Source: Thysanoteuthis rhombus (taxonomy: Eukaryota; Mollusca; Cephalopoda; Oegopsida; Thysanoteuthidae). Taken from it: a stretch of DNA of 64,000 nt. The stretch's first letter is position 1. Every line of letters begins with the position of its first letter. The notes under the pieces were generated by a model. It did not search any database. It was given only the letters and a program-made list of their open reading frames with translations, and had not been told where the DNA came from. Location of the stretch: assembly GCA_963457665.1 (NCBI GenBank), contig OY735225.1, forward strand, positions 108,501-172,500. The letters are read 5' to 3'. Below, piece by piece: positions 1 through 57,904 of this stretch. The position numbers and the translations under genes were made by a program.

Positions 1-54
1 ACTCTTGCCACGTTCATTTTGAAACTGCTCTCCTGTTCCTTCGTCTCCAGACAT
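1..54 (-). CDS. Divergent histone H4-like protein, 5' fragment (copy A)
   Basis: The window starts inside this gene. The minus strand reads ATG at 54-52 and encodes the first 18 residues (MSGDEGTGEQ then FQNERGKS), identical to the three complete copies. The rest of the gene lies left of the window. It uses CAA for Gln12, as in copy B; copies C and D use CAG. Its promoter is present at 99-261. See copy D for the family argument. Confidence 0.8.
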   Translation of the reverse strand, partial: MSGDEGTGEQFQNERGKS

Positions 55-14842: not shown

Positions 14843-16690
14843 CGATGTAGGGAAGATCATCTGAATTTTAAAGTACCAGACATTTGCTTAATTAATGTTT
14901 AAAAATTTTACCGTGTAAGATACTTTTAAAAAAAATGGATGTATTTATCTACTTACTTAAAAGTCAGGGAGAATGTAAGCATGATAAATTTAATAAATGA
15001 CAACAGGTGCCATTTCTTATTTACATATAGAAATATAATTTTATTCACTTCAATTTTAAATTGTAAACAATAAAAAAAAAGTAAATGTAATTTTTGTTTT
15101 GAAAGATTTTAAATAATGCCAAATGAATGTATCCATTTACTTATTGAGGAGTTTATCAGTTTCAAATTGATAAACCAAGTAATATTAGATCCAAGATGGA
15201 ATTGGTATTTTGAAAGATACAATTGACCCGTAATAACTTATCTAAAAATGTACGTAGCAAAATATGGGATTTGAAAAATTTCCTTTCATTCTAATTTCAA
15301 AATGAGAGACTGTAATACAAGAGTAACATTGTATAACATATTTTGGAATAGAGTGAGAAAATGTTCGTGGAACGTGGCTTGCCCTGAAAGGGGCCGTTAT
15401 GAAAAAAATATTTTAAGATTTGACCTCTGAAATCTTATATTTCGTGCAAAAGTCCTAGAGCAATGTATACGATGGTTAAAGTTTTATCACAGTTTTGACT
15501 CAGGAGAAAAAAAAAACCAATTAAACACTAAATTTTCAACTTCATCTTATTCTTTAATTTTTTGAATCACACTCAAATACTTTGATTGACAAATATTCAT
15601 TTGGTTAATTACTTTCACTTGTGTTTTTCTTTAGGAATTCATCTATACTTAGCTAGATAACAACTCCACAATGATGATTTACGTCCGTTTCTGATGTAAA
15701 ATAATGTCAGAGAAATCAATTAATACCAGTGTAACGAATCATATTTTTCAGTTTTAGTTCAATGCAGCTTGGCCATCTGAATTGTAAAGTAACACATATC
15801 AGTGAAATGTATTTTATCTTTATAATTAGTACTCGTCTTTTCCTCACGCTTCATCTTGAAATTTCTTTTCACACTTTTGACACGGTAGAAATTTAGAAAA
15901 AAACAATTGAAGATGCAGGTAAATATTACAGAAAATGTAATGATATTAATTCAATTTCCCTAATAAGTGTTAGTATCTACCTTCAACTTACTTTTTAATT
16001 TTCTAATCACATTTAGGACTTTTGATTCATTTATCTCGACAATGAATTTTGCTAAAAAAACAACGATATGGTAATGATTTATGCCCTTTCCAATATAATC
16101 TGATGTCAGAGAAATCAATTAATACCAGAGTAATAATCATATTTCCAAGTTTTAGCCCAAAGTAGCGAAAGCCATCTGAATTGTAAAGTAACACATATTT
16201 ACCAAATCGTTGTTTCAAAATTTCACAGTCAAATACTTTTTAATAGATCAATGTATTCGTCTACTGACTTACTGATCATCGGGTATGTAAGATTGTAGAA
16301 TTTAATCATTAGCAACAGGAGATATCTTCAACTTACATAGACAAAAAACTGATTTTCTTCACTTGAATAATAAATTGTAAATAATCAAAAAATGCATGCG
16401 TACTTTTGCCTCGGAAATAGTCGAATATTGCCAAATAATGTATCCATTTACTTATTGTGTAGTTTATCAGTTTAACATTTGTGAAGAAAAATACTATTAT
16501 ATCGAAGAAGGAAATTATATTTTTTAAAAAAAACACTTCTGACCTGTAATGGTTTCATTAAAAAGTGTACATAGCAAAATATACGAATTAAACGTTTTGT
16601 TTTTCTCAGATTTCAAAATTATAGAGCGACTTCTTTGAGTAAGAGTGTACTATACATGTTGTAACTATGAGAAAAAGTTTTCGGAGAAAG
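14843..16690 (-). repeat. Duplicated 3'-flank module of the H4-like gene, unit 1
   Basis: The 3' flank of copy B (about 16,110-16,695) is a diverged duplicate of about 14,843-15,380. Both contain catctgaattgtaaag, a cttacta/cttactt run, an aacagg landmark, taaattgtaaa and tgtatccatttacttattg in the same order, and each leads into a histone-type stem-loop. A third truncated start lies at 15,700-15,810. Confidence 0.6.
15379..15471 (-). pseudogene. Relic of a second H4-like histone gene, unit 1
   Basis: The minus strand keeps a damaged histone stem-loop (15,395-15,381, GGCCCC TTTC AGGGC). Upstream, 15,471-15,439 still reads like codons for the R-x-x-C-S-x-x-L-A-R-N stretch of the intact protein, then jumps directly to 3'UTR-like sequence. 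The rest of the reading frame is gone. The 3' flank is also homologous to that of the intact gene. This is an old paralogue that lost its coding region. Confidence 0.6.
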
Positions 16691-16695
16691 TGGGT

Positions 16696-16711
16696 GGCCC
16701 TGAAAAGGGCC
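16696..16711 (-). promoter_or_regulatory. Histone 3'-end processing stem-loop, copy B
   Basis: The minus strand reads GGCCCTTTTCAGGGCC followed by ACCCA: a six-base-pair stem with a TTTC loop, matching the metazoan replication-dependent histone consensus. It lies 48 bases after the stop. It would bind SLBP in place of polyadenylation. Confidence 0.92.
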
Positions 16712-16759
16712 GTTATGAGTAAATATGTTTTATATTTACTCGCTGAAACTTTACAGAGA

Positions 16760-17065
16760 TCAGCGTTGTGTCTTGATGGCATGGACAATGTCCAACGCAC
16801 ACACGGGATCTTTGACGATGTTTTTGCCATCACGAATAATTAAAGACTTGTAAGCATACATTGCATTTGCAGCATTACGGGCTAGAATTTTAGAGCAACG
16901 TTCACGTCGTTCCTCATCAGATTTAAGTGCTGAAAGTGATTTGAGATCACCTTCTCCCTTGATCAGTGAGGGGTTGGAACCCTGAACATAATCTCTGAGT
17001 ATCTCTCGATGACTCTTGCCACGTTCATTTTGAAACTGCTCTCCTGTTCCTTCGTCTCCAGACAT
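16760..17065 (-). CDS. Divergent histone H4-like protein (copy B)
   Basis: Complete intronless gene of 101 codons plus stop, starting ATG at 17,065. The protein is identical to copies C and D. Two silent differences from C and D are visible: CAA for CAG at Gln12, and GCA for GCG at the alanine of the LSAL run. The promoter has four upstream E2F-type repeats (one of them altered) where the other copies have two. A deletion of about 630 bp begins about 410 bases upstream relative to unit 1. The canonical histone stem-loop follows. Family reasoning is under copy D. Confidence 0.85.
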   Translation of the reverse strand: MSGDEGTGEQFQNERGKSHREILRDYVQGSNPSLIKGEGDLKSLSALKSDEERRERCSKILARNAANAMYAYKSLIIRDGKNIVKDPVCALDIVHAIKTQR

Positions 17066-31710: not shown

Positions 31711-32250
31711 AGTACGATGTAGGAAAGATCATCTGAATTGTAAAGTATCAGACATTTGCTTAATTAATGTTTAAAAATTTTACCGTGTAAGATACTTTTA
31801 AAAAAAATGGATGTATTTATCTACTTACTTAAAAGTCAGGGGGAATGTAAGCATGATAAATTTAATAAATGACAACAGGTGCCATTTCTTATTTACATAT
31901 AGAAATATAATTTTATTCACTTCAATTTTAAATTGTAAACAATAAAAAAAAAGTAAATGTAATTTTTGTTTTGAAAGATTCAAATAATGCCAAATGAATG
32001 TATCCATTTACTTATTGAGGAGTTTATCAGTTTCAAATTGATAAACCAAGTAATGTTAGATCCAAGATGGAATTGATATTTTGAAAGATACAATTGACCC
32101 GTAATAACTTATCTAAAAATGTACGTAGCAAAATATGGGATTTGAAAAATTTCCTTTCATTCTAATTTCAAAATGAGAGACTGTAATACAAGAGTAACAT
32201 TGTATAACATATTTTGGAATAGAGTGAGAAAATGTTCGTGGAACGTGGCT

Positions 32251-32342
32251 GGCCCTGAAAGGGGCCGTTATGAAAAAAATATTTTAAAATTTGACCTCCG
32301 AAATCTTACATTTCGTGCAAGAGTCCTAGAGCAATGTATACG
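32251..32342 (-). pseudogene. Relic of a second H4-like histone gene, unit 2
   Basis: The minus strand keeps GGCCCC TTTC AGGGCC (32,266-32,251), a histone stem-loop with one mismatched pair. Upstream, 32,342-32,309 translates as R-I-H-C-S-R-T-L-A-R-N against R-E-R-C-S-K-I-L-A-R-N in the intact protein. This is the best preserved of the three relics. The N-terminal half and helix 3 are missing. Confidence 0.65.
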
Positions 32343-33567
32343 ATGGTTAAAGTTTTATCACAGTTTTGACTCGGGAGAAAAAACAAAACAATTAAACACT
32401 AAATTTTCAACTTCATCTTATTCCTTAAGTTTTTGAATCACACTCAAATACTTTGATTGACATATATTTTATTTGGTTCATTACTGCCACTTGTGTCTTT
32501 CTTTAGGAATTCATCTATACTTAGCTAGATAACAACTCCACAATGATGATTTACGTCCGTTTCTGATGTGAAATAATGTCAGAGAAATCAATTAATACCA
32601 GTGTAACGAATCATATTTTTCAGTTTTAGTTCAATGCAGCTTGGCCATCTGAATTGTAAAGTAACACATATCAGTGAAATGTATTTTATCTTTATAATTA
32701 GTACTCGTCTTTTCCTCACGCTTCATCTTGAAATTTCTTTTCACACTTTTGACACGGTAGAAATTTAGAAAAAAACAATTGAAGATGCAGGTAAATATTA
32801 CAGAAAATGTAATGATATTAATTCAATTTTCCTAATAAGTGCTAGTATCTACCTTCAACTTACTTTTTAATTTTCTAATCACATTTAGGACTTTTGATTC
32901 ATTTATCTCGACAATGAATTTTGCTAAAAAAACAACGATATGGTAATGATTTATGCCCTTTCAAATATAATCTGATGTCAGAGAAATCAATTAATACCAG
33001 AGTAATAATCATATTTCCAAGTTTTAGCCCAAAGTAGCGAAAGCCATCTGAATTGTAAAGTAACACATATTTACCAAATCGTTGTTTCAAAATTTCACAG
33101 TCAAATACTTTTTAATAGATCAATGTATTCGTCTACTGACTTACTGATCATCGGGTATGTAAGATTGTAGAATTTAATCATTAGCAACAGGAGATATCTT
33201 CAACTTACATAGACAAAAAACTGATTTTCTTCACTTGAATAATAAATTGTAAATAATCAAAAAATGCATGCGTACTTTTGCCTCGGAAATATTCGAATAT
33301 TGCCAAATAATGTATCCATTTACTTATTGTGTAGTTTATCAGTTTAACATTTGTGAAGAAAAATATTATTATATCGAAGAAGGAAATTATATTTTTAAAA
33401 AAAACCACTTCTGACCTGTAATGGTTTCATTAAAAAGTGTACATAGCAAAATATACGATTTAAACGTTTTGTTTTTCTCAGATTTCAAAATTATAGAGCG
33501 ACTTCTTTGAGTAAGAGTGTACTATACATGTTGTAACTATGAGAAAAAGTTTTCGGAGAAAGTGGGT

Positions 33568-33583
33568 GGCCCTGAAAAGGGCC
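33568..33583 (-). promoter_or_regulatory. Histone 3'-end processing stem-loop, copy C
   Basis: Same perfect stem-loop and ACCCA flank as copies B and D, 48 bases after the stop. Confidence 0.92.
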
Positions 33584-33631
33584 GTTATGAGTAAATATGT
33601 TTTATATTTACTCGCTGAAACTTTACAGAGA

Positions 33632-33937
33632 TCAGCGTTGTGTCTTGATGGCATGGACAATGTCCAACGCACACACGGGATCTTTGACGATGTTTTTGCC
33701 ATCACGAATAATTAAAGACTTGTAAGCATACATTGCATTTGCAGCATTACGGGCTAGAATTTTAGAGCAACGTTCACGTCGTTCCTCATCAGATTTAAGC
33801 GCTGAAAGTGATTTGAGATCACCTTCTCCCTTGATCAGTGAGGGGTTGGAACCCTGAACATAATCTCTGAGTATCTCTCGATGACTCTTGCCACGTTCAT
33901 TCTGAAACTGCTCTCCTGTTCCTTCGTCTCCAGACAT
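33632..33937 (-). CDS. Divergent histone H4-like protein (copy C)
   Basis: Complete 101-codon intronless gene, ATG at 33,937. No coding difference from copy D was seen; copy B differs at two silent sites. The copy sits in the truncated third unit with only about 520 bases of its own upstream sequence before the inversion junction, but that includes all recognised promoter elements. It faces away from copy D (head to head, starts 4.6 kb apart). Confidence 0.85.
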   Translation of the reverse strand: MSGDEGTGEQFQNERGKSHREILRDYVQGSNPSLIKGEGDLKSLSALKSDEERRERCSKILARNAANAMYAYKSLIIRDGKNIVKDPVCALDIVHAIKTQR

Positions 33938-33989
33938 GATGAATGCTTGGTAGTGAAAATCTTATGAGCTGGCTGACTGATAGCTTTCC

Positions 33990-34152
33990 TTTTTATACAG
34001 CTCCGATATTAGTTTAACAGGCAGCAGTCAGCGCAGAACGTAGGCTCCTAGTTCAGGTGTGTGCTTAGTTGAATTTTCATTGGTTACAAATTACACACAT
34101 TTTTGTTTTTGAAAATTTGAGCGCGAAAATATCAGCAGTTTGAGCGCGAAAA
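33990..34152 (-). promoter_or_regulatory. H4-like promoter, copy C
   Basis: Minus strand: TATAAAAA at 33,997-33,990, CCAAT at 34,083-34,079, and E2F-type TTTTCGCGC at 34,129-34,121 and 34,152-34,144. Confidence 0.6.
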
Positions 34153-34461
34153 TATCAATAGTTTGCAAGCCGCATGTCTCTGATTCCAACGTATCAGTAA
34201 GCACATTCCATTACTCGCCAATTACAATGAAAGTGGAGATAAGTGAAAATTGAAGAAGCTTCCTTTTAGTCGATTATTTATTACAACTTTTTGAATTCAT
34301 TTAAACTTTTTACTTGTTTCATTGCAGCGTTGACCTGGGATAGAGAACGACTAAAGAAAAAGACAGAAATATACAGTAATAAAAATGTGATGTGATGTTT
34401 TTTACCATTTAGCAGTGATTTTTTTTACCATTTCTATTATTCTTTGACCTCATCCCAATTT

Positions 34462-37500: not shown

Positions 37501-38317
37501 TTTGAAGAAGAGAAATTTTCAACAAAAACATGTTAACAGCATAGAAGTTTAACAACTATTTATTTCCATTTTAATTTTTTTGTCTTATTTTCAGACGAAT
37601 TCAGATCACTATTAAGACCTATATTATATCGAATCAAAGGTAAAAACTAGTAAAAATATTCGTAAAAATCACATTACATTTCATCACTATGTATTCCCAT
37701 AGTCCTTTTTTAATGTTTATTTTGTTTTATTTTTAGACGAAATCAAATTTTCGATGAGACACATTCAATATTGAATTTATGGTAAAAAGTTGTGAAAATA
37801 ATAGCACACATCACTAGTGGTAGAGATCACATTACATTTTCACTACTATTTACTTCCATCTCTCTCTCAAACTCAGATTGAAAACAAAAAGATTGAGATA
37901 AAGTTTTTGAAAAATAATTTTTGTTAAGAAAAGATGGAGTGAATATCATTAAATCACAACTACTATTTTATTCCATCGTGTTGTTACGTTGTTTTCTTAA
38001 CCGAAATCAAAATTGGGATGGGGTCAAAGAATAATAGAAATGGTAAAAAAATCACTGCTAAATGGTAAAAAACATCACATCACATTTTTAGTACTGTACA
38101 TTTCTGTCTTTTTCTTTAGTCGTTCTCTATCCCAGGTCAACGCTGCAATGAAATAAGTAAAAAGTTTAAATGAATTCAAAAAGTTGTAATAAATAATCGA
38201 CTAAAAGGAAGCTTCTTCAATTTTCACTTATCTCCACTTTCATTGTAATTGGCGAGTAATGGAATGTGCTTACTGATACGTTGGAATCAGAGACATGCGG
38301 CTTGCAAACTATTGATA

Positions 38318-38480
38318 TTTTCGCGCTCAAACTGCTGATATTTTCGCGCTCAAATTTTCAAAAACAAAAATGTGTGTAATTTGTAACCAATGAAAATTCA
38401 ACTAAGCACACACCTGAACTAGGAGCCTACGTTCTGCGCTGACTGCTGCCTGTTAAACTAATATCGGAGCTGTATAAAAA
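38318..38480 (+). promoter_or_regulatory. H4-like promoter, copy D
   Basis: Two E2F-type TTTTCGCGC sites (38,318-38,326 and 38,341-38,349), a CCAAT box (38,387-38,391) and TATAAAAA (38,473-38,480), in that order. Transcription is predicted to begin about 30 bases after the TATA box, giving a 5'UTR of only about 30 bases, typical of replication-dependent histone genes. Confidence 0.62.
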
Positions 38481-38532
38481 GGAAAGCTATCAGTCAGCCA
38501 GCTCATAAGATTTTCACTACCAAGCATTCATC

Positions 38533-38838
38533 ATGTCTGGAGACGAAGGAACAGGAGAGCAGTTTCAGAATGAACGTGGCAAGAGTCATCGAGAGATACT
38601 CAGAGATTATGTTCAGGGTTCCAACCCCTCACTGATCAAGGGAGAAGGTGATCTCAAATCACTTTCAGCGCTTAAATCTGATGAGGAACGACGTGAACGT
38701 TGCTCTAAAATTCTAGCCCGTAATGCTGCAAATGCAATGTATGCTTACAAGTCTTTAATTATTCGTGATGGCAAAAACATCGTCAAAGATCCCGTGTGTG
38801 CGTTGGACATTGTCCATGCCATCAAGACACAACGCTGA
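38533..38838 (+). CDS. Divergent histone H4-like protein (copy D, reference copy)
   Basis: Intronless, 101 residues (H4 has 103 with Met). Numbering without Met, residues 1-28 align to H4 with no gap, and S1, G2, G7, K16, H18, R19, L22, R23, D24, Q27 and G28 are shared. Later, LKSLSAL matches the VKRISGL position, EE at 50-51 matches the H4 EE pair, and ALDIVHAIKTQ matches AMDVVYALKRQ of helix 3. Differences are striking: R3 to D, K5 to G, K8 to E, K12 to N, K20 to E; about eight extra residues before helix 3; no H4 C-terminal tail; two cysteines. Acidic residues number 15 against 18 Lys/Arg, whereas H4 is strongly basic. With the histone stem-loop 48 bases downstream, a replication-dependent H4-derived nuclear protein, probably an H3 partner, is the best reading. 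Another histone-fold family is less likely. Function and expression are unknown. Confidence 0.87.
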   Translation: MSGDEGTGEQFQNERGKSHREILRDYVQGSNPSLIKGEGDLKSLSALKSDEERRERCSKILARNAANAMYAYKSLIIRDGKNIVKDPVCALDIVHAIKTQR

Positions 38839-38886
38839 TCTCTGTAAAGTTTCAGCGAGTAAATATAAAACATATTTACTCATAAC

Positions 38887-38902
38887 GGCCCTTTTCAGGG
38901 CC
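38887..38902 (+). promoter_or_regulatory. Histone 3'-end processing stem-loop, copy D
   Basis: GGCCCTTTTCAGGGCC followed by ACCCA, matching the metazoan histone stem-loop consensus. A CCGAAAAC stretch at 38,914-38,921 is a possible U7-binding downstream element; that part is weak. No AATAAA stands between the stop and the stem-loop. Confidence 0.93.
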
Positions 38903-40125
38903 ACCCACTTTCTCCGAAAACTTTTTCTCATAGTTACAACATGTATAGTACACTCTTACTCAAAGAAGTCGCTCTATAATTTTGAAATCTGAGAAAAACA
39001 AAACGTTTAAATCGTATATTTTGCTATGTACACTTTTTAATGAAACCATTACAGGTCAGAAGTGGTTTTTTTTAAAAATATAATTTCCTTCTTCGATATA
39101 ATAATATTTTTCTTCACAAATGTTAAACTGATAAACTACACAATAAGTAAATGGATACATTATTTGGCAATATTCGAATATTTCCGAGGCAAAAGTACGC
39201 ATGCATTTTTTGATTATTTACAATTTATTATTCAAGTGAAGAAAATCAGTTTTTTGTCTATGTAAGTTGAAGATATCTCCTGTTGCTAATGATTAAATTC
39301 TACAATCTTACATACCCGATGATCAGTAAGTCAGTAGACGAATACATTGATCTATTAAAAAGTATTTGACTGTGAAATTTTGAAACAACGATTTGGTAAA
39401 TATGTGTTACTTTACAATTCAGATGGCTTTCGCTACTTTGGGCTAAAACTTGGAAATATGATTATTACTCTGGTATTAATTGATTTCTCTGACATCAGAT
39501 TATATTTGAAAGGGCATAAATCATTACCATATCGTTGTTTTTTTAGCAAAATTCATTGTCGAGATAAATGAATCAAAAGTCCTAAATGTGATTAGAAAAT
39601 TAAAAAGTAAGTTGAAGGTAGATACTAGCACTTATTAGGAAAATTGAATTAATATCATTACATTTTCTGTAATATTTACCTGCATCTTCAATTGTTTTTT
39701 TCTAAATTTCTACCGTGTCAAAAGTGTGAAAAGAAATTTCAAGATGAAGCGTGAGGAAAAGACGAGTACTAATTATAAAGATAAAATACATTTCACTGAT
39801 ATGTGTTACTTTACAATTCAGATGGCCAAGCTGCATTGAACTAAAACTGAAAAATATGATTCGTTACACTGGTATTAATTGATTTCTCTGACATTATTTC
39901 ACATCAGAAACGGACGTAAATCATCATTGTGGAGTTGTTATCTAGCTAAGTATAGATGAATTCCTAAAGAAAAACACAAGTGAAAGTAATTAACCAAATG
40001 AATATTTGTCAATCAAAGTATTTGAGTGTGATTCAAAAAATTAAAGAATAAGATGAAGTTGAAAATTTAGTGTTTAATTGTTTTTTTTTTCTCCTGAGTC
40101 AAAACTGTGATAAAACTTTAACCAT

Positions 40126-40200
40126 CGTATACATTGCTCTAGGAAGATTTCAGAGGTCAAATCTTAAAATATTTTTTTCATAACGGCCCCTTTCAGGGCC
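40126..40200 (+). pseudogene. Relic of a second H4-like histone gene, inverted unit
   Basis: Keeps the mutated stem-loop GGCCCC TTTC AGGGCC (40,185-40,200) and the start of the coding trace (40,126-40,143), but has lost about 17 further bases of the trace that the unit 1 and unit 2 relics keep. Confidence 0.55.
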
Positions 40201-40899
40201 AGCCACGTTCCACGAACATTTTCTCACTCTATTCCAAAATATGTTATACAATGTTACTCTTGTATTACAGTCTCTCATTTTGAAATTAGAATGAAAGGAA
40301 ATTTTTCAAATCCCATATTTTGCTACGTACATTTTTAGATAAGTTATTACGGGTCAATTGTATCTTTCAAAATATCAATTCCATCTTGGATCTAACATTA
40401 CTTGGTTTATCAATTTGAAACTGATAAACTCCTCAATAAGTAAATGGATACATTCATTTGGCATTATTTGAATCTTTCAAAACAAAAATTACATTTACTT
40501 TTTTTTTATTGTTTACAATTTAAAATTGAAGTGAATAAAATTATATTTCTATATGTAAATAAGAAATGGCACCTGTTGTCATTTATTAAATTTATCATGC
40601 TTACATTCCCCCTGACTTTTAAGTAAGTAGATAAATACATCCATTTTTTTTAAAAGTATCTTACACGGTAAAATTTTTAAACATTAATTAAGCAAATGTC
40701 TGATACTTTACAATTCAGATGATCTTTCCTACATCGTACTAAAACTTGAAAATATTATCCGTTACTCTCGCATTAATTCGCTGTTTTTTTTTTGTTTTTC
40801 TTTGGGCGTTAAATTATATTTAAAAGAAGAATGTAAATCATAATTGTGTTGTCATTTTTTAGAAGTATTTACAAAATTACAAATTAAGGTAAGCGGGAG

Positions 40900-49787: not shown

Positions 49788-51566
49788 TCAAATTTGTACA
49801 ATATTTTTTTTTTCCGGGAAGAAAGAGAAAAGTCCCTCCAGATTACAAGAATAGCCCCGACCCAATTCATTCACACAAAAATCTGAAATTCTTTCTTCTG
49901 TTTTCACTGATTGGATTTCTTTTCCGTTTGGATTAAAACAAAATAATTCAGAACAATATTCACTTGTCATCCAAAAACCTCCCGTTGAGGGATTGGCACG
50001 AATTATAGGCGAACAAAATTCAAACGATTTTCCAGTTTGAATCGTTTTCATCTTTTTGCCTTCCTTTGTAAACAAATCAACATTCAATGAACGATCACAA
50101 ACGAAAATATATTCGTTTGTTTGACACAAAGAACGGAGTGATCCCTCCATCCCTGTGTTGATGATTTTTTTGATCTGTAAAATCGGAGGAAATTTTTTTC
50201 TCTCCAAAAATATAAGTTTATTATTAACCCCGTGCCTGTCGTGAGCAACAACAACAAAAATGTTTGGGGACACCGAACAGATATCCAAGGGATATAAGCT
50301 CTGCAATTTTTGCTCTAAAAGACACTGACTGATTAATCTTCTATTTTTGTCTAATTCGATAATTGAATTGTTGGGATAATCACAGATTAAGATGTGATTG
50401 TTTTCTCCGTTTACTAGAATCGATGTAATTAACTGGTTCAATCGCAGCAGATTCCATTCTTTTTCCAAGACGAAATTCTTTGCAGAAGATAAGCATTCTG
50501 GGGTCAAATAAACGTAGCCAATCTCTCCCACTTTGATATTGTCTTGGGTTTCTGTCCACCAAGCGGGAAACGTGACATTTAAATGACATTTCTTTACCTG
50601 TTCGACCGGTTTTTGAAGGCAAGATGACAGTTTCGATCCCAACATCTGCAGACCGCAAACAACGTCCGTGTCTTGTTGGGATTCACTCAGCAAATGATTC
50701 AGATGTAACCGCCAGATCTCGATTTCTTTCAATATTTTCTCATTTTCTGCCAATTGGTTTTGCCACTTTTTCACTTGCTCGTCCGTTATTCGCTTCATAT
50801 TTTTGCACAGTTCTTCCGTTCTCTGCTTTGCATTCTGAATCATTTCTTCTAAATTCTCCCATATTTGCCTGCATTTCGATTCATAATCTGCATGCAGTTC
50901 TGTTGTGTAAAGCGTCGTCCTTTCAATCAGCCTTCTTAGACTTATCTCGAAGTCGTCCATTTCTTTTGCCAGGGTGGGGCCTTGCAATTTTTGTTTAGAA
51001 GCCTCTTCCTTTACAGACAATGGCCGAGACGAACAGCCAGGCGACTTTTGAAGATGAGTTCTGTAACATTTGTTACAAAAACACTCATTGCAAATCAAGC
51101 AATAAGAGTCCTTGGGGGTTCTGTGCAAAGGGCACATGTCTGTCGTCATTGCATTTATATATTCCCTCTTCTCATTTTCAGTCAAGACTTTAGGTTTGTG
51201 TGTTGGAAGTAATTTATTGTGGAATCTAGAACAATTATTGCAGAAGAGTTTCTGGCACTCATGACACCAATTTGTGGCTGTTGATTCAACGCCATCTTCC
51301 GAACAGAATGTACACTTCCATTCCTCTGATAGCAGTTGTTGACGTCTCAAAGCCTTGGTCACAACTGGACAGAGGCTCAACAGGTCATGAATAAATGGTT
51401 CGTGGCACTCTGGACACCAACCATTTCCATCCGTCTGTCCCTCAAAATTTCTGTCAAAACAAATGCGACAGTAAGAATGAAGACATGCTAATGTCTTCGA
51501 TTCTAAATTCAACTCTTCATGGCAACTGGTGCATTGAAATATAGTGGGACTTTGCTTTGAAGCCAT
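49788..51566 (-). CDS. TRIM-like RING/B-box E3 ubiquitin ligase with C-terminal propeller-like region
   Basis: Single uninterrupted frame of 592 codons from ATG 51,566 (MASKQSPT). The open frame extends 10 codons further to a TTG, but ATG is the sensible start and lies about 30 bases after a splice-acceptor-like tttatttacag (51,598 onward), so a 5' non-coding exon is likely. Domains: RING-HC about residues 12-54 (C12, C15, C28, H30, C33, C36, C51, C54); B-box type 1 about 84-122; B-box type 2 about 144-170; coiled coil about 190-310; then a C-terminal region with repeated beta-rich runs such as NHILICDYPNNSIIELD, resembling NHL/six-bladed propeller TRIM proteins. Family knowledge predicts E2-dependent ubiquitin transfer, target recognition by the propeller and self-assembly by the coiled coil. 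No frameshift or missing RING ligand is seen. The specific orthologue cannot be named. Confidence 0.85.
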   Translation of the reverse strand: MASKQSPTIFQCTSCHEELNLESKTLACLHSYCRICFDRNFEGQTDGNGWCPECHEPFIHDLLSLCPVVTKALRRQQLLSEEWKCTFCSEDGVESTATNWCHECQKLFCNNCSRFHNKLLPTHKPKVLTENEKREYINAMTTDMCPLHRTPKDSYCLICNECFCNKCYRTHLQKSPGCSSRPLSVKEEASKQKLQGPTLAKEMDDFEISLRRLIERTTLYTTELHADYESKCRQIWENLEEMIQNAKQRTEELCKNMKRITDEQVKKWQNQLAENEKILKEIEIWRLHLNHLLSESQQDTDVVCGLQMLGSKLSSCLQKPVEQVKKCHLNVTFPAWWTETQDNIKVGEIGYVYLTPECLSSAKNFVLEKEWNLLRLNQLITSILVNGENNHILICDYPNNSIIELDKNRRLISQCLLEQKLQSLYPLDICSVSPNIFVVVAHDRHGVNNKLIFLERKKFPPILQIKKIINTGMEGSLRSLCQTNEYIFVCDRSLNVDLFTKEGKKMKTIQTGKSFEFCSPIIRANPSTGGFWMTSEYCSELFCFNPNGKEIQSVKTEERISDFCVNELGRGYSCNLEGLFSFFPEKKNIVQI

Positions 51567-51814
51567 TTCTCTGACTGTGTGATGACCATTAATCAACCTG
51601 TAAATAAAGGGAAATCATTTTGTAAATAAATTACTATCATAAAACAAACAACAAAAAAAAGAGTGAGTCAAAAAGGAACAAAAAAAAAATAAAATCGATG
51701 TTCAAAGCCATAAAATGACTCAGTTGATATAGGAAAATATTCCATTTATTAAACTTTACGTAAAATAACCTGTTGTTTTTTAGGATGTTTCAGATTAAGA
51801 GTGAGAGAAAGTTA

Positions 51815-56689: not shown

Positions 56690-57904
56690 CACAAGTTCAT
56701 TTAACCCTCTTTCAATGAAATGCAGATCCATACACTTCACAAGTAAATGGTTTATCTCCTGTGTTAGCCTGTGTATTTTTGAATTTGATTCCAGTAAAAG
56801 TGCAAAATCTGATTTCTCTCCAGTATGTAATTGCATGTGTAATTTTAATTGAACTGATATACGCATTCAAGTAGAACATGATTTTTCTCCAATGTGTGTT
56901 TGCATGTGTTTTTTCAAATGTGATTTCTGAGAAAATGCAGACTGACACACTTCGCATGTAAATGGTTTCTCTCCACTGTGTGTTTGCATATGAACTTTCA
57001 AATGTGAACTGCGTGAAAATGCTAATGAGCACATTTCACAAGAATATGGTTTCTCTCCAGTATGTGTTCGCATGTGATTTTCTAATGTTGATTTTTGGGA
57101 AAATGCAGATCGACAAACTTCACAAGTAAATGGTTTCTCTCCAGTGTGTGTACGAATGTGATTTTTTAAAGTTGATTCCATTGAAAATGCTGATCCACAC
57201 ACTTGACAAGAATATGGTTTTTCTCCGGTATGTGTCTGCATGTGTCCCTTTAAATGGGATTTTCTTGAAAATGCAGACTCACATACTTCACAAGTATATG
57301 GTTTCTCTCCAGTGTGTGTTCGCATGTGTGATTTTAAATTTCCTTCATGTGAAAATGCAGATCTGCATACTTCACAAAGTTTCCCTCCAGTGTGTGTTCG
57401 CATATGTTTTGTAAATGCAGACCCACATACTTCACACGAGTATTTCTCTCCAGTGTGTGTACGCATGTGGCTTTTTAAACTTGAACTATTTGAAAATGCT
57501 GATGGACATATTTCACAAGAAAAAGGTTTTTCTCCAGTGTGTCTTTGCATGTGGGTTTTTAAATGTCCTTTCTGTGAAAATGCAGATCCACACACTTCAC
57601 AAGTAAATGGTTTCTCTCCAGTGTGTGTTCGCATGTGTATCTTTAAATTTCCTTCATGTGAAAATACAGAACCACATACTTCGCAAAATTTCCCTCCAGT
57701 GTGCATTCGCATATGTCTCCGAAATTCTAATATGCTTGCAAAATGCAGACCCACATACTTCACAAGAGTATGATTTCTCTCCAGTGTGTGTTTGCATGTG
57801 GCTTTTTAAACTTGAAATATTTGAAAATACTGATGGACATACTTTGCAAGCAGAGGGTTTTCCACCAGTATGTCTACGCATGTGGATTTTTAAATTTCCT
57901 TTCA
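56690..57904 (-). pseudogene. C2H2 zinc-finger array, frameshifted and truncated
   Basis: The central frame (about 57,740-56,867) has nine complete C2H2 fingers (CEVCGSAFS...LK.HM.TH type) joined by TGEKP linkers, plus one shortened finger (FTKHMRTH). Upstream, 57,904 to about 57,740 carries one complete finger and parts of others in another frame. The shift is within the finger reading CEVCGSAFCKH. Downstream, after EKSCST-stop, finger pieces continue in two further frames (HMQLHTGEKS, then TGDKPFTCEVYGSAFH) to about 56,690. The N-terminal side is cut at about 57,904 by the composite repeat. In life such proteins bind DNA in the nucleus; this copy looks dead, although the nine-finger exon alone remains open. 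Confidence 0.8.

Follow-up and report, generated by a model that had tools for sequence, protein, structure and literature searches.

The gene at positions 38533..38838 (+) of the stretch of Thysanoteuthis rhombus DNA analyzed here is very probably a functional, constrained histone variant of squid derived from histone H4. The whole stretch, hereafter the window, comprises 64,000 nucleotides and corresponds to C30:108501-172500 of the assembly. The gene (copy 3, subfamily A) consists of an ORF of 101 amino acids plus stop, with an ATG start and no intron. Two further intact copies are encoded on the opposite strand, namely copy 2 (33632..33937, -), an inverted duplicate of copy 3 with a nucleotide-identical CDS, and copy 1 (16760..17065, -), whose CDS differs from that of copy 3 by two third-position changes, both synonymous. 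Copies 1, 2, and 3 encode one and the same 101-residue protein. A truncated copy at the left edge (1..54, read 54-1, -) contains the first 18 codons and continues beyond the window, its match in the genome covering residues 1-76 only (C30:108327-108554).

The promoter of copy 3 contains a TATAAA box at 38473..38478 (+), starting 60 bases 5' of the ATG, and a CCAAT element at -146. A histone 3' UTR stem-loop (Rfam RF00032, Histone3) was found 3' of each intact window copy, at 38882..38926 (+) for copy 3, 33544..33588 (33588-33544, -) for copy 2, and 16672..16716 (16716-16672, -) for copy 1, each time with 37.6 bits against a gathering score of 34. The original prediction of an intronless gene with a histone 3' stem-loop is thereby confirmed, the ORF 38533-38838 being uninterrupted. 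When up to 3 mismatches are allowed, the window contains 6 occurrences of the stem-loop motif GGCCCTTTTCAGGGCCACC (0.01 expected). A second, slightly altered motif lies about 1.3 kb 3' of copy 3 (40185..40203, +) and likewise 3' of copy 2 (32248-32266, -) and of copy 1 (15377-15395, -). The sequence in which these second motifs lie has approximately 71-72% similarity to that 3' of the gene itself. No histone ORF is left before them and none is reported by Rfam at the gathering score, and they are probably the remnant of an old duplication. Copying is also evident from a perfect inverted repeat of 1958 nt, whose left arm (32468..34425) contains copy 2 and whose right arm (38045-40002) contains copy 3, and from a 16.9-kb unit that includes copy 1 and is approximately 96-98% identical to the adjoining unit. 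A tblastn search with core histone queries (E 0.01) detected no H2A, H2B, or H3 partner genes in the 64-kb window, and the H4 query matched only the variant genes described here. Other ORFs in the window include one of 602 residues with weak RING and B-box matches (TRIM-like; 49788-51596, -) and one of 298 amino acids encoding an array of nine or ten C2H2 zinc fingers (56867-57763, -).

The genome (2.73 Gb, 514 contigs) has 38 reflectin matches, the best with 89% identity, which mark it as that of a cephalopod. A protein search of it yielded 57 matches, 39 of them full-length and open by hand count of the list; some copies are interrupted by stops or fragmentary. The gene thus belongs to a multicopy array, as had been proposed; of the at least four copies claimed for the window, three are intact and the fourth is the truncated one at its left edge. 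The copies fall into three subfamilies: A, the window type; B, on contigs C26, C39, and C40; and C, on contigs C20, C22, C29, and C64. Subfamily B proteins have 104 residues, keep the H4 helix-1 motif, and read LIRRLARKGGLK or near it at the site of H4's AIRRLARRGGVK, the H4-like motif IRRLARKGG being present. In subfamily C, three residues are missing shortly after the helix-1 motif stretch. Promoters and 3' ends were compared in 21 copies (23 loci minus L053 and L054, both broken copies). The TATA box is kept in 18 of them and the TATA region is absent in the other 3; the exact stem-loop GGCCCTTTTCAGGGCC is likewise present in 18 of the 21, the other 3 having one- or two-base variants. Judged from their sequences, these genes appear to combine all the features of a replication-dependent H4 gene: no intron, a TATA promoter, and a 3' histone stem-loop.

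Block duplication has multiplied the variant gene, for the most part close to chromosome ends. Large contigs carry 20 clusters, of which 17 are no more than 1.2 Mb away from an end and 12 no more than 200 kb. With respect to single matches, the corresponding numbers are 44 and 23 of 52 (the 57 matches minus two pieces of other matches and three on small contigs). Only three clusters, on C26, C37, and C39, are internal. Telomere repeats were observed at the start of C3 and at 5 of 15 further contig ends (300 bases each), while of these 15 ends, 6 are N over the 300 bases and 4 have other sequence. A 181-bp satellite occupies all of C30:1-10000 (L015) with 99% identity, and sequence resembling it by eye is present at the start of C9 (L091) and the end of C29 (L087).

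Descent of the window gene from a histone H4 gene, i.e., its proposed status as a strongly divergent H4 paralogue, is established by comparisons with the PDB, by profile comparisons, and by comparisons within the same genome. The window protein gave 62 PDB matches at E <= 10 (best E 5.7e-4), and the best 60 of these are all histone H4. The best 60 of 83 matches of an 11-member family profile (best E 1.9e-6) and the best 60 of 93 matches of subfamily B (best E 3.8e-9) are likewise H4 only. Aligned by hhalign with the genome's own H4, the family reaches a probability of 96.9 (E 1.8e-10, 94 columns, 37% identity). The family profile scores 26.4 bits with H4, 1.6 with H2B, -0.4 with H3, and -1.3 with H2A, as compared with 7.4 bits for the best shuffled H4 (468 of 500 shuffles reported) and 10.1 bits for the best shuffle among all four core histones. 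Most of the H4 score (15.7 bits) is given by the first 30 residues; the part after residue 30 alone yields 7.3 bits, a narrow excess over the maximum of 6.7 in 1000 shuffles. Taken alone, the subfamily A protein is weakly H4-like (27% in tblastn), and in these comparisons subfamily B bridges the gap to H4. Searched against the genome, subfamily B retrieved 134 rows, comprising the 57 family matches and 77 further rows, of which by our reading 74 are H4 loci, two are family fragments, and one is unassigned. The closest relative is thus H4, both in the squid's own genome and among the PDB matches listed. In the phylogenetic tree, the window family forms its own branch with 100/100 support and a length of 1.37 changes per site.

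The extent of divergence is best seen on the hhalign alignment, where 35 of 94 residues of subfamily B and 29 of 94 of subfamily A are identical to H4, so that most other positions differ, as originally predicted. That prediction also holds for the alignment of residues 1-28 without gaps, for the retention of H18-R19, L22-R23-D24, and Q27-G28, and for a helix 3 that is recognizable in hhalign (CALDIVHAIKTQ vs. TAMDVVYALKRQ in H4). The supposed EE pair of helix 2 is retained by half, since D-E is aligned to H4's E52-E53 and the first E is replaced. Helix 2 is placed differently by MAFFT and hhalign, which leaves its register uncertain. Conservation across the subfamilies extends to H4-like segments, among them H18-R19, L22-R23-D24, and portions of helix 3. 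In the tail, D replaces R3, G replaces K5, E replaces both K8 and K20, and N replaces K12, K16 being the only modifiable position of this set that is kept. H4 has a net charge of +18, with +7 in its first 20 residues; here the overall charge is down to +3, and the first 20 residues carry -1 in subfamily A and -3 in subfamily B. Further replacements are R45 to P or S, Y88 to H, and R92 to T; R45, K77, and K79, which belong to loops 1 and 2 and help to hold DNA, are all lost. Subfamily A additionally lacks R36 and R39 owing to a three-residue deletion in helix 1. Relative to H4, hhalign places insertions of two residues near the start of helix 2 and of seven residues before or in loop 2. The C-terminal RTLYGFGG, by which H4 docks H2A, is absent, and in the subfamily A, B, and C copies that were read the protein stops one residue past the equivalent of Q93. 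By sequence, H4-like character persists in helix 3 and in the last part of the tail, whereas most modified tail positions, most of the basic charge, part of helix 1 in subfamily A, loop 2, and the C-terminus are altered or lost. The gene was therefore classified as an H4-derived variant and not as a canonical H4, because it agrees with H4 in descent and gene type and departs from it in tail, C-terminus, and conservation.

A histone fold is likely to be present in the encoded protein because of its homology to H4. Single-chain AlphaFold models, a check foreseen in the original prediction, were of low confidence for both subfamilies. The model of subfamily A (own-family alignment of 11 rows) has a mean pLDDT of 55.9, with helices at 19-27, 50-76, and 87-99, and that of subfamily B (16-row alignment, three rows being H4) has one of 43.2, with helices at 19-28, 32-40, 54-79, and 91-102. 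The helix order in both low-confidence models is that of a histone fold, but a Foldseek search with the subfamily A model (mean pLDDT 55.9) gave 43 matches at E <= 10 and none at E <= 0.001, and the four nucleosome-entry chains among the 43 are without meaning at that model confidence.

As a stem-loop gene implies S-phase supply, the variant would be made in the S phase of some cell type, where it would replace H4 as partner of an H3; the chances for and against such pairing are about evenly balanced. The loss of tail lysines would remove the sites of acetylation and of K20 methylation, and the loss of R45 and the loop-2 charges would weaken the grip on DNA. The C-terminal end of H4 also contributes to ASF1 binding, and its loss would abolish H2A docking and part of the ASF1 contact. 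Binding of RbAp46/48 involves helix 1 of H4 and might be disturbed by the helix-1 deletion in subfamily A. Enough of the H3-facing helices may be kept, with the other contacts lost, for a loose particle with H3. Because the acetylatable tail, the DNA-holding loop arginines, and the H2A-docking C-terminus are missing, what forms would be no stable nucleosome but a particle, either an H3-variant dimer or a tetrasome, that is loose or incomplete and can be removed with ease. Rapid change and gene amplification are typical of germ-line chromatin genes. Mammalian testis-specific variants of H2A, H2B, and H3 are reported to form less stable nucleosomes (PMC3156773). For these two reasons, the germ line or early embryo would be the most likely site of use, although we propose germ-line use only tentatively.

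A competitor of a chromatin role is that the protein has secondarily become a non-chromatin protein of H4 ancestry, acting either as a soluble chaperone or sink for H3 or as a factor that is secreted or cytoplasmic. The drop in net charge described above, both overall and in the first 20 residues, would fit such a change, as would the loss of R45, K77, K79, and the C-terminal docking end, given their roles in H4. However, the histone-type promoter and the 3' stem-loop are retained, which points to S-phase supply, and the subfamilies have kept H4-like segments such as H18-R19, L22-R23-D24, and portions of helix 3. We consider this possibility rather unlikely; it is a case within the functional, constrained H4-derived variant, so that the likelihoods given to the two do not add up to a whole.

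That the variant is functional is supported by the pattern of substitutions. Purifying selection clearly keeps the subfamily A protein: of the 32 intact A loci, 22 contributed 15 distinct CDSs (25 records, three loci being included twice), among which there are 25 synonymous and 14 nonsynonymous changes, a ratio of 0.19 (P 4.6e-7 against random mutation). The segregating sites of subfamily A are distributed over codon positions 1, 2, and 3 as 6, 4, and 21, respectively (20 copies; 22 were aligned and two left out), and pN/pS is 0.15 (45 pairs, 10 sequences). Constraint between subfamilies is moderate (pN/pS 0.37-0.49). The 3 pairs within B give a ratio of 0.40, and the 6 pairs within C, which have few changes, give one of 0.78, so that constraint is not evident within C. 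The identical test applied to X, Y, and Z, three families of another H4-like clade described below, gave ratios of 0.69, 0.87, and 0.60 with 7, 8, and 12 distinct CDSs, respectively, none of them significant, so the test does not give low ratios for everything. These results bear on the proposal that the genes are subtelomeric passengers, i.e., a dead or dying family of H4 pseudogenes that is copied with chromosome-end duplications and has no function. The proposal is consistent with the location of genes within 16.9-kb units copied at approximately 96-98% identity, with the stops or fragments in some copies, with the ratio within C, and with the lack of significant constraint in the sampled X, Y, and Z copies. 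Nonetheless, it is made improbable by the excess of synonymous changes and the codon-position pattern in subfamily A, by the low ratio not being universal in the test, by window copies 1 and 3 differing only by two synonymous changes, and by the 39 full-length open copies.

Membership in a different histone-fold family merely resembling H4 (CENP-T/W, TAF6, NF-Y, or an archaeal or viral histone) is already largely refuted and extremely improbable: although neither the window protein nor any of 10 other members scanned was assigned to a histone-fold family by Pfam (10 of the 11 had no match and one had a chance match to YebG, E 0.18), so that the classification hangs on H4-specific comparisons, the PDB, which includes such families, gave H4 only among the best 60 of 62, 83, and 93 matches, subfamily B carries the H4-like IRRLARKGG, and IMG/VR contains no viral relative for the two peptide patterns scanned. 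Since Pfam shows no histone family, the assignment to H4 rests on the PDB, hhalign, and genome comparisons, and the profile check that had been proposed against non-H4 families turned up none of them in Pfam and H4 only among the PDB matches listed. Two other candidate origins were discarded: that helix 2 is frameshifted H4, as six-frame tblastn including the H4 loci shows no out-of-frame match to the window protein, and that the gene is viral, based on the same IMG/VR search with two peptide patterns.

Histone H4 is the textbook case of a protein with almost no sequence change, and its near-invariance is not shared by the window family (29/94 identical residues in A, 35/94 in B). The H4 variants described in the available parts of the compared papers are far closer to H4, having few changes, at least 80% identity, or a conserved fold. 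Human H4G (H4.7, H4C7) is C-terminally truncated, as is the window family, and is reported to form no stable nucleosomes in vitro; it is 85% identical to H4, five residues shorter, and encoded by one gene (PMC11742582), whereas the window family has 29-35 of 94 identical residues, an acidic tail, a longer loop 2, and dozens of copies. The fungal H4E of ascomycetes resembles the window family in being an H4 paralogue with a divergent N-tail; many modifiable residues are lost, the protein is nuclear and interacts with H3, the histone fold is "quite conserved," the tails are longer, and the genes have introns (PMC10878826). In the window family, by contrast, the fold region itself is remodeled and the gene is intronless. 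H4t of Oikopleura dioica has three residue changes vs. H4, as compared with 59 (B) or more of the 94 aligned residues in the window family. Among the trypanosome variants, that of T. cruzi shares with the window family a connection to chromosome ends. T. cruzi H4.V is 98% identical to H4 and shows protein enrichment at the interface of telomere and subtelomere (PMC13052989), and T. brucei H4V is 80% identical to H4; in the trypanosome the protein marks chromosome ends, whereas in the squid it is the genes that are located there. No divergent H4 from a cephalopod or mollusc was found among the titles, abstract openings, and matches listed in the literature search. The window family is an animal H4 offshoot in which most modified tail positions are removed and the DNA- and H2A-contact regions are rebuilt; selection nevertheless acts on it, and dozens of copies exist. 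It offers a natural experiment on the parts of H4 that can be dispensed with, and in squid the replacement of H4 in a particle resembling a nucleosome becomes a testable question.

The window family is not the only H4-like radiation in this genome. When the best 150 of 322 candidates obtained with a type-Z query were scored, at least 102 belonged to another H4-like kind and 48 were canonical or near-canonical H4 (hand count). This second clade comprises the types X, Y, Z, and W, which are intronless, encode 91-97 amino acids with a GLGG end, and in some cases have arginine-rich tails (loci L016-L024, L026, L027, L034, and L055-L075). It is located mainly at C45:12.5-13.2 Mb and, near contig ends, at C13:67.03-67.39 Mb, C14:65.47-65.99 Mb, C30:87-101 kb, and C29:53.476 Mb; a further site is C463:80-93 kb. 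A TATA box is present in most or many of the sampled genes, and histone stem-loops score in their loci in Rfam. The clade thus resembles the window family in being H4-like and intronless, in its TATA boxes and stem-loops, and in occupying partly the same end regions. In contrast to the window family, it keeps the GLGG end and is without the H4-like tail, and X, Y, and Z are without the significant constraint found in subfamily A. In the tree, the X/Y/Z/W clade has its own support of 98/99, against 100/100 for the window family. A reading of the tree as separate origins of the two clades was not retained, as the AU test does not reject a joint clade apart from canonical H4 (p 0.475). Any common ancestor of both would still have been H4-like, because each keeps H4 features that the other has lost.

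Taken at its widest, the evidence suggests a scenario that we regard as possible, though short of probable: in squids, a second core histone of the H4 type may have evolved that is under constraint, has an acidic tail, and lacks the end by which H2A is docked. It would build a different kind of particle with H3 at a particular cell stage, for example in the germ line or during cleavage, and its genes would multiply at chromosome ends beside a further H4-like radiation. If true, this would be the pattern expected had H4 itself been drawn into genomic conflict or chromatin turnover as a partner.

Other histone sequences in the genome were also surveyed. No H2A radiation comparable to that of H4 was found among 77 matches at E <= 0.001 (best 150 of 180 candidates scored), and no divergent H3s near the chromosome-end clusters were observed among the matches listed. 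Short H2A-like stretches occur in the X/Y/Z/W arrays (L017, L018, L019, L022, L023, L027, and L034), where only the first 37-55 residues are resembled, with 47-57% identity. Divergent or decayed H3-like sequences of approximately 41-76% identity, many of them with stops, are located at C11:40.85-40.92 Mb, C29:9.75-9.83 Mb, and C15:27.55 Mb. A tandem cluster at C19:10.80-10.92 Mb (L029) encodes variants of H4 (94% identity to the queries), H3 (95%), H2A (91-93%), and H2B (90%), with seven H4 copies read in two pieces.
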